Assembly (NCBI GenBank): GCA_027449745.1
Contig: DAIDKZ010000251.1
Location: 1 to 64,000 of the forward strand
DNA from: Acetobacteraceae bacterium
Lineage (GTDB): Bacteria > Pseudomonadota > Alphaproteobacteria > Acetobacterales > Acetobacteraceae
DNA: 64,000 nt
Reading direction: 5' to 3'
The position numbers were made by a program, and so were the translations under genes. Below, in pieces: positions 8,654 through 56,317 of the stretch. The notes beneath the pieces were generated by a model. The model was not told where the DNA came from and searched no databases. It saw only the letters and a list, made by a program, of their open reading frames with translations. The stretch's first letter is position 1. Every line of letters begins with the position of its first letter.

Positions 8654-8728
8654 CTAAAACATCCGCTCTCGCCTCCCCCTTCGTTCGACGCCATGGTGGC
8701 GCCGAGCACACCCCACGAGGTTCAATCC

Positions 8729-9547
8729 ATGTCGTCCAATGCGTCGTTGATCACCGCGCTGATCCACGAGATCGGGGTCGATCCCGGCTTCAACATCCGC
8801 CAGGACACCCCGGAGCGCGCCGCCCACATCGACCAGTTGAAGGAGTCGATCCGGACGGTCGGGCTCCAGGTGCCCCTGCGCGTGCGCCGCCACCACGAGA
8901 CCTACCTGATCGTGGACGGCCATTGCCGCTTCGCCGCGCTGCAGGCACTCCATCAGGAGGGCGCGCACAGGGACGGCGTGCAGTGCTTCGTCGAGCCCGG
9001 CGACAGCACCACGGCCGACCACATCCTCACCATGCTGATCAGCGACACCCGCCTGCCGTTCCAGCCCCTGGAGCGGGCGGAGGGGGTGATGCGGATGCTG
9101 AGGCTGGGCTGGAACAAGACGCGCGTCGCCCTCCATCTCGGCTGTTCGGTGAAGCAGGTCGAATACCTGATCGACCTCGCCCACGTCCCGGAGGAGGTCA
9201 AGGCCATGGTGGTCGAGGGCGAGGTCGCCCCGACTGTGGCCGTGCAGGCCGTGCGCAAGGAGGGGCCGGCCCACGCGGCCGAGGCTCTCACCGCGGCGAA
9301 GGAGGCGAAGGAGGAGAGGAAGGCGAAGGCCGCCGAGGCGGCGAAAACCCCGAAGGCCGCGCGCGCCGAGCGGCAGGCCAAGGCTGACGCCGCCCCCACC
9401 CCGCCCCCGCGCCCGGAGGACGGGGCGCCCCCGTTCGACCGCGAGACCTTCCACGCCATGCACGAGACGCTGCGTGATCTGCTCCGGCTGACCTCGGTCG
9501 ATCTGATCCACGCCACCATCCGCGACCTTTACGAGAGCCTGTCCTGA
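8729..9547 (+). CDS. ParB/Srx-like domain protein
   Basis: 272 residues from ATG 8729, chosen over one 36 bases upstream because CGAGG sits about nine bases before it. Residues ~10-90 form a ParB N-terminal domain, with the signature DGHCRFAA at 63-70 (the family's DGxRRxxA). Residues ~110-155 resemble the ParB helix-turn-helix region (LGWNKTRVALHLGCSVKQVE). A long Ala/Lys/Glu linker (~180-225) leads to a short C-terminal helix that could dimerise. No ParA is nearby, so a regulatory or CTP-dependent DNA-binding role is more likely than partition. The stop overlaps the next ATG by one base. Confidence 0.85.
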   Translation: MSSNASLITALIHEIGVDPGFNIRQDTPERAAHIDQLKESIRTVGLQVPLRVRRHHETYLIVDGHCRFAALQALHQEGAHRDGVQCFVEPGDSTTADHILTMLISDTRLPFQPLERAEGVMRMLRLGWNKTRVALHLGCSVKQVEYLIDLAHVPEEVKAMVVEGEVAPTVAVQAVRKEGPAHAAEALTAAKEAKEERKAKAAEAAKTPKAARAERQAKADAAPTPPPRPEDGAPPFDRETFHAMHETLRDLLRLTSVDLIHATIRDLYESLS

Positions 9548-9993
9548 TGCTCACCACTGGACAGGGGTGGTGGCGCGATTGCTGCGGCCTCTGGCACCGG
9601 GTGCGCCCTGCCGTCGCCCGTCCGGTGGGCAGCGTGGTCCGGCACATTCACCGGGCCGCCTGCGCCTGTCCTGCGGCCGTCCTGCGGGGTGGTCTGCTCG
9701 GGGGCGCCCTGACACTGCCCCCGCTGCCGCCCGCGCCGGTGCCGGCGATCGAGACCCCGGAGGCGCTGCTCCCCGCTGGCCCGGCCGGCCTGCCGTGGGG
9801 TGGCGGCTTCGTCACTGTCGGCGACCCTGGCCGCCCGGGTGAACCCGGCGCCCCGGGCACCCCGGGTGAACCCGGCGCCCCGGGCGAGCCCGGCGCGCCG
9901 CTGCTCGTGCCCGAGCCCGGCACGCTCACGATCCTCGGCGCCGGCGTGGTGCTGCTGCTTCTCGTGCGCCGCCGGGGACGCACTCCCAACTGA
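9547..9993 (+). CDS. Collagen-like repeat protein with PEP-CTERM sorting signal
   Basis: 148 residues. Residues 92-118 are nine Gly-X-Y collagen triplets (GDPGRPGEPGAPGTPGEPGA and on). The C-terminus is a textbook PEP-CTERM tripartite signal: VPEP at 121-124, a hydrophobic helix 126-140 (TLTILGAGVVLLLL) and the basic RRR at 141-143. Such proteins are exported, cleaved by an exosortase and anchored or released at the cell surface in Gram-negative bacteria. The N-terminus is Arg/Cys-rich, with a weak hydrophobic stretch near 44-60 rather than a classical signal peptide. Translationally coupled to the ParB-like gene (TGATG). It may modify the host surface; that is inference. Confidence 0.85.
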   Translation: MLTTGQGWWRDCCGLWHRVRPAVARPVGSVVRHIHRAACACPAAVLRGGLLGGALTLPPLPPAPVPAIETPEALLPAGPAGLPWGGGFVTVGDPGRPGEPGAPGTPGEPGAPGEPGAPLLVPEPGTLTILGAGVVLLLLVRRRGRTPN

Positions 9994-10020
9994 ACCACCA
10001 ACCTCAGAAAGTCTCAATCC

Positions 10021-10392
10021 ATGCCCGAGCGCCCACGCCCTGGTGCAGACGTGCCTGAAGAAAATCCAGGAACGGACCCGGGCGCGCACATGACCGACGC
10101 ACCCCCCAACGAGTGGGAGCGCGAGCGCGCCTACGGCCGGACCGTCCATCCCGACGATCTGACCGCCAGTCGCCATAAGATGCGCTACAATGTGCGCGTC
10201 CATGGCTGGACCTTCGACCACAACACCCGGCTCTGGTATCCGCCCGACGCGCCGGGCGGCACCGAGGGCCTGCAACTGCCGGGCGCCTATCTCTCGACCT
10301 ACCGGGGGATGATCGAGTTCGTCGCCGACGCCCCCAATCGGCGCGCGCGCCAAGCGGCGCGTGCGAACGCCGCAAGTAAAACAGAAGGTTAA
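10021..10392 (+). CDS. Hypothetical protein (123 aa)
   Basis: Hydrophilic, 123 residues. A disordered Pro/Glu-rich start is followed by a small domain rich in aromatic residues (MRYNVRVHGWTFDHNTRLWY) and a basic Ala/Arg tail. Not recognised. The ATG at 10021 has only a weak AGAAAG before it; an internal ATG at 10090 (MTDAPPNEWERERAYG) is the alternative start and would remove the disordered leader. Confidence 0.6.
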   Translation: MPERPRPGADVPEENPGTDPGAHMTDAPPNEWERERAYGRTVHPDDLTASRHKMRYNVRVHGWTFDHNTRLWYPPDAPGGTEGLQLPGAYLSTYRGMIEFVADAPNRRARQAARANAASKTEG

Positions 10393-10393
10393 G

Positions 10394-10747
10394 ATGGCAT
10401 ACAAGCTGTATAGATGCACCCTGCAGGATGATCTCGGATCGTTCTGCTTCACCGCTGACCTCGCCCGGCCGGAGGCGCCGGTGTGGCTGTTCGAGCAAGA
10501 CGAAGACGACGGCTGGGGCGAGCGCGAGACGCCCTTCACCACCGCGCTGGTCGGCGCCGACGCCCGCCGCGCCGCTGTGCTGCTGACCGAATATCTCGGC
10601 GCCGATCTCTGGCAGGACGCGGAGAGTGCCAAGCCCCCGCCGCCGCCGGACAAGCTGCTGGTCTATCTCGACAGGCTGATCGAAAGCGTGGTCGAGACCG
10701 ACACGCCCCACATCGGCTCGGGCTATCGCTTCACCTCCGACCGCTGA
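10394..10747 (+). CDS. Hypothetical protein (117 aa)
   Basis: 117 residues from ATG 10394, two bases after the previous stop and preceded by AGAAGG. A mixed alpha/beta start (MAYKLYRCTLQDDLGSFCFT) is followed by an acidic loop, an Ala/Leu helix, a run of prolines and a final helix. Unrecognised and probably soluble. An ATG 33 bases upstream is in frame but lies within the preceding gene. Confidence 0.65.
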   Translation: MAYKLYRCTLQDDLGSFCFTADLARPEAPVWLFEQDEDDGWGERETPFTTALVGADARRAAVLLTEYLGADLWQDAESAKPPPPPDKLLVYLDRLIESVVETDTPHIGSGYRFTSDR

Positions 10748-10761
10748 TCGGGAAACCCCTC

Positions 10762-11301
10762 ATGATCACGGACCGCCAGAAGGCGCGCGCCGCCGTCACC
10801 GCCAACGGCTGGGCTCTTTCCAACCTCTCCCCTGAACTGCGGGCCGACCCGGCGATCGTGCGGGCCGCTGTCACGCAGAACGGCATCGCGCTGCAGTTCG
10901 CCGATGACGCGCGGCGCGACGACTTCGGGACGGTGTGGCTCGCCGTCACGCAGGCGGGGGGCGCTCTCGTCCACGCCTCGCACCGCCTGCGCGGCGATGC
11001 CGCGCTCACCTCGATCGCGGTGCGCCAGGATGCCGACGCGCTCCAGGCGTGCCTATGCCACCGCGGCTGGGTGGACCACGAGTTCTACATCTCGGGGACC
11101 GACCGGGCCGGCGTGCGCTACGCCACGCTCCGCGACGATGTCGATCCCTATCGGTGGCGCTTCCTGAGCACGGAGCAGCCGATCCCGCTGCTCGAAGCCG
11201 TGGTGCGCTTCGGCCCGCGTTCGCCCACCCATCGCGCCGAGCGCTTCAAGCAGGTGATGCGCTGTATGGATGCGCTTAAGAAACGGAACATTGAGCCATG
11301 A
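10762..11301 (+). CDS. DUF4116-like repeat protein
   Basis: 179 residues. The first ~100 carry repeats of the DUF4116 type, in which a buried Trp/Leu-Ala motif alternates with 'RADPAIVRAAVTQNGIAL': ARAAVTANGWALSNLSPELR, then RADPAIVRAAVTQNGIALQF, then FGTVWLAVTQAGGALVHAS. Such repeats are common in proteins of giant viruses, protists and some phages, and their function is unknown. The C-terminal part is unrelated and basic. The stop overlaps the next ATG (ATGA). Confidence 0.7.
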   Translation: MITDRQKARAAVTANGWALSNLSPELRADPAIVRAAVTQNGIALQFADDARRDDFGTVWLAVTQAGGALVHASHRLRGDAALTSIAVRQDADALQACLCHRGWVDHEFYISGTDRAGVRYATLRDDVDPYRWRFLSTEQPIPLLEAVVRFGPRSPTHRAERFKQVMRCMDALKKRNIEP

Positions 11302-11573
11302 ACGACACGCCGGTCTATACCCCCGAGATCATCTACATCACCCGCTACGCAATCACGCGCGGCATCGTGAAGGCGCGGCGCAAGAATTCCTACGGGGATG
11401 TCGAGGGCTGTAATTTCCCTTTCTTTAAGGCCCACGCCAACGCCCGCGGCATTGACTGGCATACGTCTCTCGAAGCCGCCCAGAACCGGGCCGAGGAGAT
11501 GCGGAAGAACAAGATCAAGGCTTATGAAAAGGCCATCGAGCGGCTGAAAAAGCTCAAGATCACGAGATCGTGA
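11298..11573 (+). CDS. Hypothetical basic protein (91 aa)
   Basis: 91 residues, Lys/Arg-rich, ending in a helix of alternating Lys, Glu and Leu (NKIKAYEKAIERLKKLKI) suitable for nucleic-acid or protein binding. The N-terminal half (YTPEIIYITRYAITRGIVKA) appears to be beta-rich. Coupled to the DUF4116-like gene by a four-base overlap. No family recognised. Confidence 0.65.
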   Translation: MNDTPVYTPEIIYITRYAITRGIVKARRKNSYGDVEGCNFPFFKAHANARGIDWHTSLEAAQNRAEEMRKNKIKAYEKAIERLKKLKITRS

Positions 11574-11629
11574 TTGGTATCGTCGCCGCCGCACCCCTAC
11601 GTTTCGACTGCACTGGTAGGAGAGCGGAG

Positions 11630-11824
11630 ATGCTCACGGTCGATGTCGAGGCATCGGACACGGTGCCGGGGGTGACACTCTACACCCTCAAATTTCCGAA
11701 CGGCTGGGTGACGGTCGAGCAATCGGCCGACTTCATTCAGTGCGACATCCGCAACCCGGACAGCGGGGAGCGGGTGGTGGGCACCTGGGCCAGCACGGCG
11801 GAGATCACGCACGGCATCGGATAG
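11630..11824 (+). CDS. Hypothetical small protein (64 aa)
   Basis: 64 residues from ATG 11630, chosen because TAGGAG (11617-11622) is well spaced before it; a GTG at 11570 would also be open but lacks a ribosome-binding site. The sequence reads as a small all-beta fold (MLTVDVEASDTVPGVTLYTL and on). Function unknown. It is the last gene before the inverted-repeat intergenic region at 11825-11922. Confidence 0.6.
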   Translation: MLTVDVEASDTVPGVTLYTLKFPNGWVTVEQSADFIQCDIRNPDSGERVVGTWASTAEITHGIG

Positions 11825-25840: not shown

Positions 25841-26482
25841 ATGAAGCAGAACACATCCCATGCGGTGATGGCGCAGCGCGGCGAGCCGCGCGAGAGCCTC
25901 GACGATTTCCCCACCCCGCCCTGGGCGACGCGCGCGCTTATGGAGCACGTGATGCTCTATCCGGTGGATGCCATGAGCTGCCTCGAACCCGCCTGCGGCG
26001 CCGGCCACATGGGCTTCGTCCTGGACGAGTATTTCGAGACCGTGACGATGTCCGACATCGTGGACCGCGGCGCCGGCGCGCAGCAGGATTTCCTCTCGAC
26101 CTTCCACGCCCCGGACAGCTTCGACTGGGTGATCACCAACCCACCCTTCAACCGCGCCGAGCCGTTCGCCCGCCGGGCCTTCTCGGTCGCCAAGGTCGGC
26201 GTGGCGCTCCTTGTGCGCACCGCGTTCCTGGAGGGGGTCGGCCGCTACAAACGGCTGTTCGATGAAAACCCGCCCAGGACGGTCGCGCAGTTCGTCGAGC
26301 GCGTGCCGATGGTCAAGGGGCGCCTGTCGCGGACGGCGAGCACCGCGACGAGCTACGCATGGCTGGTCTGGCGCCGGCCACTCGGCGGCGCACCGAGCCG
26401 TCTGGTCTGGATACCGCCGTGCCGAAAGCGCCTTGAGCGCGACAGTGACTATCCCATCACTCCAGAGGCAGCCATCACATGA
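25841..26482 (+). CDS. Adenine-specific DNA methyltransferase
   Basis: 213 residues from ATG 25841. Class I SAM-binding motif EPACGAGHMG (~49-58) and the catalytic NPPF at 100-103 define an N6-adenine methyltransferase. The opening FPTPPWATRALMEHV is typical of phage versions. Phages use these to avoid host restriction. No restriction enzyme partner is adjacent, so it is an orphan. The stop overlaps the MazG start (ATGA). Confidence 0.85.
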   Translation: MKQNTSHAVMAQRGEPRESLDDFPTPPWATRALMEHVMLYPVDAMSCLEPACGAGHMGFVLDEYFETVTMSDIVDRGAGAQQDFLSTFHAPDSFDWVITNPPFNRAEPFARRAFSVAKVGVALLVRTAFLEGVGRYKRLFDENPPRTVAQFVERVPMVKGRLSRTASTATSYAWLVWRRPLGGAPSRLVWIPPCRKRLERDSDYPITPEAAIT

Positions 26483-55897: not shown

Positions 55898-56317
55898 TTA
55901 CACGCGCGTGATGTAAAAGGTGTGATGACCGATGACGCAGGTCTGATGCGCGCTCTCGATCCAATGCGGTTGGTCCACAGCGAGGTTGACGTAGCTGTCG
56001 GCGCCCCCCGTCCCATCGGCCAGCTCGCCGGCGAGCGCGCGGGCGGCGATGTCGGACGCGATCGCGAACTCCGGATCGCTGACGTCCACGGCCAGCATCT
56101 TCTCCCGGTTGGGGTCGCTGACCAGCCAGCACGAGAACTGCCAGGGGGCGAGGCAGACCGACTTGACATCGGTCCCCCACCAGCCGGGGTGCGCGGCCCG
56201 GTTGAGCATGACCGAGGCCACCGCCTCCATGCCGGACTGGCCCTCGCCGCGCGCCTCACCCCAGATGGTGCGCGCGAAAACGCTGTGCGTGTCGAGGCTG
56301 TGTGGATCAATGCTCAT
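55898..56317 (-). CDS. Endolysin: SleB-type cell wall hydrolase
   Basis: 139 residues. The SleB/CwlJ hydrolase pattern is clear: FARTIWGEARGEG with the catalytic Glu (~20), then EAVASVMLNRA, and APWQFSCW. These are transglycosylase- or amidase-like peptidoglycan hydrolases used by many alphaproteobacterial phages for lysis. It has no signal peptide and follows the holin gene directly. ATG 56317 is preferred; a GTG one codon earlier is also possible. Confidence 0.88.
   Translation of the reverse strand: MSIDPHSLDTHSVFARTIWGEARGEGQSGMEAVASVMLNRAAHPGWWGTDVKSVCLAPWQFSCWLVSDPNREKMLAVDVSDPEFAIASDIAARALAGELADGTGGADSYVNLAVDQPHWIESAHQTCVIGHHTFYITRV

Follow-up and report, generated by a model that had tools for sequence, protein, structure and literature searches.

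Bacteria are known to sort surface proteins linked to exopolysaccharide by means of exosortase. PEP-CTERM proteins usually carry an N-terminal Sec signal (PMC12188702, PMC9850573), and among them is the floc-associated PepA of Zoogloea and Aquincola, which is chromosomally encoded, possesses a signal peptide that works in a PhoA fusion, and has a role in floc formation (PMC9850573). On the viral side, a survey of contigs from Yellowstone hot springs lists, among transferred host genes, 13 proteins of the TIGR03118 family, with a putative domain for interaction with exosortase (PMC11003980). In the accessible text of 5.4 million open papers we found no study of the use of the PEP-CTERM/exosortase system by phages. 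The statement in a preliminary description of the present locus that no phage use is established therefore holds, within this open text, for functional work, and has to be qualified by the one brief hot-spring precedent.

The locus lies in a 64-kb stretch of DNA (the window) which covers most of contig C251, a sequence of 70,672 bp lacking a terminal repeat that was binned in a 3.3 Mb Acetobacteraceae MAG of 93% completeness. C251 carries genes for a terminase, portal, major head protein, tape measure, central tail fibre J, PolA, helicase and primase; by these hallmark genes it is a tailed phage; the preliminary description had called the protein phage-encoded. It is a siphovirus of the Seuss/JWF type, and the annotated phages closest to it are others of that type, represented by Caulobacter phage Seuss and Achromobacter phage JWF. 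The terminase and DNA polymerase A match theirs at about 40% and are related over most of their length, and the portal, major head protein and tape measure are likewise present. Beyond the window, a low-complexity repeat at L010:949-1246 (about 64949-65246 of C251) reads KPSQAKPSQAKPS in two minus-strand frames and AWLGLAWLGLAW on the plus strand.

The gene of interest and the parts of its product are as follows.

9547..9993, + strand, phage PEP-CTERM gene, 148 aa
9547..9687, + strand, basic N-terminal segment with 7 Arg and one acidic residue (residues 1-47)
9655..9747, + strand, weak hydrophobic segment AACACPAAVLRGGLLGGALTLPPLPPAPVPA (residues 37-67)
9820..9900, + strand, run of nine consecutive Gly-X-Y triplets, each of them Gly-X-Pro (residues 92-118)
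9907..9975, + strand, PEP-CTERM motif of VPEP, hydrophobic helix and RRR (residues 121-143), matched by profiles

The ORF begins with ATG, and its product ends in VPEPGTLTILGAGVVLLLLVRRRGRTPN, in which VPEP starts at residue 121 and is followed by a hydrophobic helix and, at the extreme C-terminus, by RRRGR. The protein scores 21.1 bits with Pfam PF07589 (PEP-CTERM; curated cut-off 20.7) and, over its complete length, 18.3 bits with TIGR02595 (curated cut-off 16), the latter rising to 21.6 bits in a genome-wide search. It thus combines a C-terminal PEP motif, helix and basic cluster at scores above both curated cut-offs, rather than at background. A local profile built from 111 other PEP-CTERM tails gave 33.1 bits for this tail; the maximum among 60 Markov-3 shuffles of the entire contig was 9.5 bits, and the remainder of the contig together with eight related phage contigs reached at most 5.5 bits, so that the motif did not arise by chance. 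The PEP-CTERM tail is genuine, and the proposal that VPEP, helix and RRR form a C-terminal sorting signal is confirmed as an observation.

The N-terminus is less typical. Residues 37-67 are the only candidate for a signal peptide or first membrane span, and their maximal 12-residue hydropathy is 1.41, compared with a 5th percentile of 1.96 and a minimum of 1.38 in a comparison set of 81 viral PEP-CTERM proteins, and with values mostly of 1.7-2.9 in the PEP-CTERM proteins of the host. This value is equalled or exceeded by 42% of the proteins of the same phage. The candidate signal peptide is not convincing on this measure, although a possible cleavage site, APVPA|I, seen by eye, and the charge pattern speak for one. 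An AlphaFold single-sequence model of low confidence (pLDDT 56) has a helix at residues 124-144 and weaker helices within residues 3-54, including 41-54. The net charge changes from +6 over residues 1-47 to -6 over residues 48-139 (permutation p = 0.001 for these two parts), and the C-terminal end carries +4; since this distribution agrees with the positive-inside rule, it favours export, and an in-out-in topology would fit the product.

The nine Gly-X-Y triplets exceed the maximum of seven in shuffles, yet the run is short. With the Pfam Collagen model the protein scores 16.4 bits, under the cut-off of 27.2, and this GC-rich repeat likewise encodes nine Gly-X-Y triplets when read on its antisense strand, so that "collagen-like" is a description of a linker and no more. 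The triplets noted in the preliminary description are present; the collagen-like functional domain suggested there is not supported, and residues 92-118 are better described as a linker rich in Pro than as an established collagen domain.

Upstream of the helicase gene, the PEP-CTERM gene is flanked by a ParB-like gene on one side and small ORFs on the other. Its surroundings were compared with G002, an IMG/VR contig which is the closest near-complete relative of C251 (terminase 56%).

8693..9547, + strand, ParB-like gene, directly upstream (33.5% identity in G002)
9548..11569, + strand, accessory stretch of about 2 kb, holding four small ORFs in addition to the PEP-CTERM gene, absent from G002 between parB and the next shared gene
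11570..11824, + strand, small ORF at the far border of the insertion, resembling by eye a G002 gene (TWASTAEI vs AWATHEEI)

At the junction TGATG, the ATG of the PEP-CTERM gene overlaps the parB-like stop codon TGA by a single nucleotide, the A, an arrangement which suggests translational coupling of the two genes. In G002 the homologue (by eye) of 11570-11824 directly follows parB, and from this we conclude that the PEP-CTERM gene and the four small ORFs form an insert of about 2 kb. Synteny extends between C251 and its IMG/VR relatives, including G002; genes common to G002 flank the insert on both sides, which argues against a stray piece of host DNA at a contig end. ORFs at 10762-11301 of the window and at L010:2238-3002 contain repeats of the form AAVxQNGxALxxA...LRxDxEIVxxAV, which we take to resemble DUF4116.

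A PEP-CTERM match was found in none of 56 related phage records (6 isolated phages and 50 from IMG/VR, many of the latter fragments). Judged by gene content, the gene is accessory in this phage, and the suggestion that related phages might keep the motif was not borne out. A tblastn search of 50,697 phage records with the 9547-9993 protein returned no homologue, a result made uninformative by the low-complexity filter. Single-sequence back-translated searches gave Gly-rich look-alikes only for the PEP-CTERM protein and no match for the ParB-like protein. With the motif in 0/56 relatives and no homologue found with the low-complexity filter on, nothing indicates that the gene is under selection.

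The MAG contains one exosortase match, an exosortase A (XrtA) scoring 291 bits against a cut-off of 208, in a complete locus with adjacent genes for the XrtA-associated ATPase, polysaccharide deacetylase, FemAB and glycosyltransferase. More than 20 PEP-CTERM matches in the MAG exceed the cut-off. The named relatives of its exosortase are mostly from Acetobacteraceae and Rhodospirillales MAGs, and an exosortase is encoded by each of the three genomes in the genus. In a search of 200 genomes of the family, tail-only matches included Acetobacteraceae PEP-CTERM proteins such as LVPEPGSACVLGAGLAAFLVTRRRGRTI and APEPGSLTILGAGVLALGGLLVIRRGRGI, and Acetobacteraceae proteins among these matches contain the same RRRGR or LTILGAGV pieces as the phage tail. 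An Acetobacteraceae host fits the exosortase A in the bin, the enzyme in 3/3 genus genomes and these similar tails. Insofar as the bin represents the host, the host possesses an exosortase, as the preliminary interpretation requires; binning is the one direct link between phage and host, with the similar tags beside it. A search of 299 genomes from the order turned up no terminase relative, and the genus of the MAG has no Cas1.

PEP-CTERM genes recur on other viral contigs. Two DNA-pattern scans of IMG/VR revealed at least 103 genuine PEP-CTERM C-termini on at least 99 viral loci, and most of the full-length proteins among the matches listed have a strong signal peptide. Since those encoded by other phages are mostly of 180-300 aa with good signal peptides, they look like cargo. 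Each of the three large contigs analysed in full contains a tandem pair of PEP-CTERM genes.

47588-49043 of contig G429 (IMG/VR 3300021475_000001), tandem pair (L338-L343)
49787-50914 of contig G434, tandem pair (L344-L348), beside tail spike and terminase genes
99251-100780 of contig G454, tandem pair (L349-L354)

G429 (111 kb, 127-bp terminal repeat) encodes a portal, PolA and ribonucleotide reductase, and its pair adjoins a phrog_62 helicase, the same PHROG as the helicase of the window. G434 (88 kb) has a terminase, tail sheath and UvsX, and the phage evidence for G454 (120 kb) is weaker. The product of window positions 25841-26482 is 55% identical to a G429 protein adjoining the pair, G429 being otherwise mostly unrelated. 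PEP-CTERM proteins of Family A (at least 27 loci, median identity 41%) are about 220 aa long in L226, L251, L267, L286 and L297, where their genes have a terminase homologue on one side and a portal homologue on the other and the proteins are 50-100% identical to the queries.

The terminase family PF03237 was matched in 9/44 tested PEP-bearing viral records, so some of these contigs are not proven phage, and our argument for recurrence in phages rests on the contigs with hallmark genes. Tblastn searches of the 50,697 phage records with a G429 protein and with families A and B gave no matches; nor did a synthetic PEP tail, for which the low-complexity filter makes the result uninformative. Two peptide patterns detected no phage-encoded exosortase in IMG/VR. 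The presence of PEP-CTERM genes in unrelated phages suggests that phages exploit exosortase sorting. This recurrence surpasses, in strength and in interest, the finding of the C251 gene, which is a modest and atypical case.

For C251 itself, the most likely explanation, to which we give about even weight, is that the siphovirus, through an accessory gene specific to its lineage, provides the exosortase of its host with a substrate, which would alter the surface of the infected cell in favour of the phage. The phage would infect an exosortase-positive Acetobacteraceae bacterium, and the PEP-CTERM product would be translated together with the upstream parB-like gene of the replication-side block. 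It may insert into the inner membrane with both ends cytoplasmic and its acidic, Pro/Gly-rich middle periplasmic. The host XrtA would then recognise VPEP, remove the C-terminal helix and deliver the remainder to the envelope or exopolysaccharide layer. There the processed product would probably change the cell surface, perhaps through superinfection exclusion or through altered exopolysaccharide or aggregation. The preliminary interpretation as a whole, in which the phage uses the host exosortase to place a collagen-like protein on the cell surface, is partly supported.

Several other readings must be set against this one. That the frame is an untranslated chance product of GC-rich DNA might be argued from its skewed composition (GC1 0.83, GC2 0.66) and from a coding score that is reduced in the N-terminal third, but the profile score of the tail, far above that of any shuffled contig and located at the C-terminus of the ORF, and a start inside the parB-like stop codon make this very improbable. 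We give hardly any credence to a collagen-like virion part resembling those of phage tail fibres: prophages are known to encode collagen-like sequences (PMC3368898), and nine Gly-X-Pro triplets would suit such a role, yet the Collagen score and the antisense triplets tell against it, the gene lies far from those for the phage tail, and it is hard to see where a PEP-CTERM signal would belong in a virion. The two hydrophobic segments, basic ends and small size of the product would also be compatible with a small membrane protein of the phage, either resembling a holin or spanin or acting in superinfection exclusion at the inner membrane, for which the PEP box would be irrelevant. However, PEP box, helix and RRR together fit a curated model and not a generic span, and the endolysin gene (55898-56317), with its adjoining small ORFs, lies in the late block far from 9547-9993; we consider this proposal improbable.

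The remaining two readings take the tail at face value. A functionless piece of host DNA, comprising a PEP-CTERM tail and linker acquired with the 2 kb insert and still retained, would account for the accessory nature of the gene, for the similarity of the tail to those of Acetobacteraceae and for the weak signal peptide. Against it, the frame is intact and overlaps the parB-like stop, its GC3 of 0.85 is consistent with coding, and the charge pattern is that expected of a membrane protein, so that we regard a captured remnant as unlikely, if deserving of some weight. Alternatively, the product could be a decoy and not a cargo: a membrane peptide that engages XrtA and thereby reduces how much of the host's own surface protein is sorted, for example of that in the exopolysaccharide layer. 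A short product with a weak signal peptide and no recognisable cargo domain is what such a decoy might look like, and a host with more than 20 PEP-CTERM hits and a single exosortase match would suit it; no inhibitor of this kind was found in the literature searched, however, and the PEP-CTERM proteins of other phages are cargo-like. Inhibition of this sort seems quite unlikely.

Supply of an exosortase substrate by the phage is the reading that we carry forward for C251. Its extension is that several unrelated lineages of phages infecting exosortase-positive bacteria carry genes for exosortase substrates of their own, often as tandem pairs or between terminase and portal, and remodel the infected cell's surface with the help of the host enzyme. 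It is put forward tentatively, as somewhat short of an even prospect; if true, it would be a general route of host takeover not yet described. Phages supplying exosortase substrates would have a defined way of changing the host surface during infection, PEP-CTERM proteins would become candidate superinfection or aggregation factors, and an exosortase-positive host would offer a host-range clue for uncultured phages.

In comparison with known systems, the C251 phage differs from the Seuss/JWF-type phages in its PEP-CTERM gene, a match being present in 0/6 searched records of the latter. The TIGR03118 proteins (PMC11003980) are virus-encoded like the 9547-9993 product, but they belong to a different family, of unknown function in that report. 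PepA (PMC9850573) is likewise a PEP-CTERM protein of exopolysaccharide-producing hosts, and the match of its model to the phage protein is limited to the tail. Unlike typical Gram-negative PEP-CTERM/XrtA proteins, the product is phage-encoded, only 148 aa long and weak in its signal peptide, and no homologue of it was found beyond tail and linker. What it has in common with the PEP-CTERM/exosortase A (XrtA/EpsH) system (PF07589, TIGR02595) is VPEP, the hydrophobic helix and the Arg cluster, together with an XrtA locus in the same bin.
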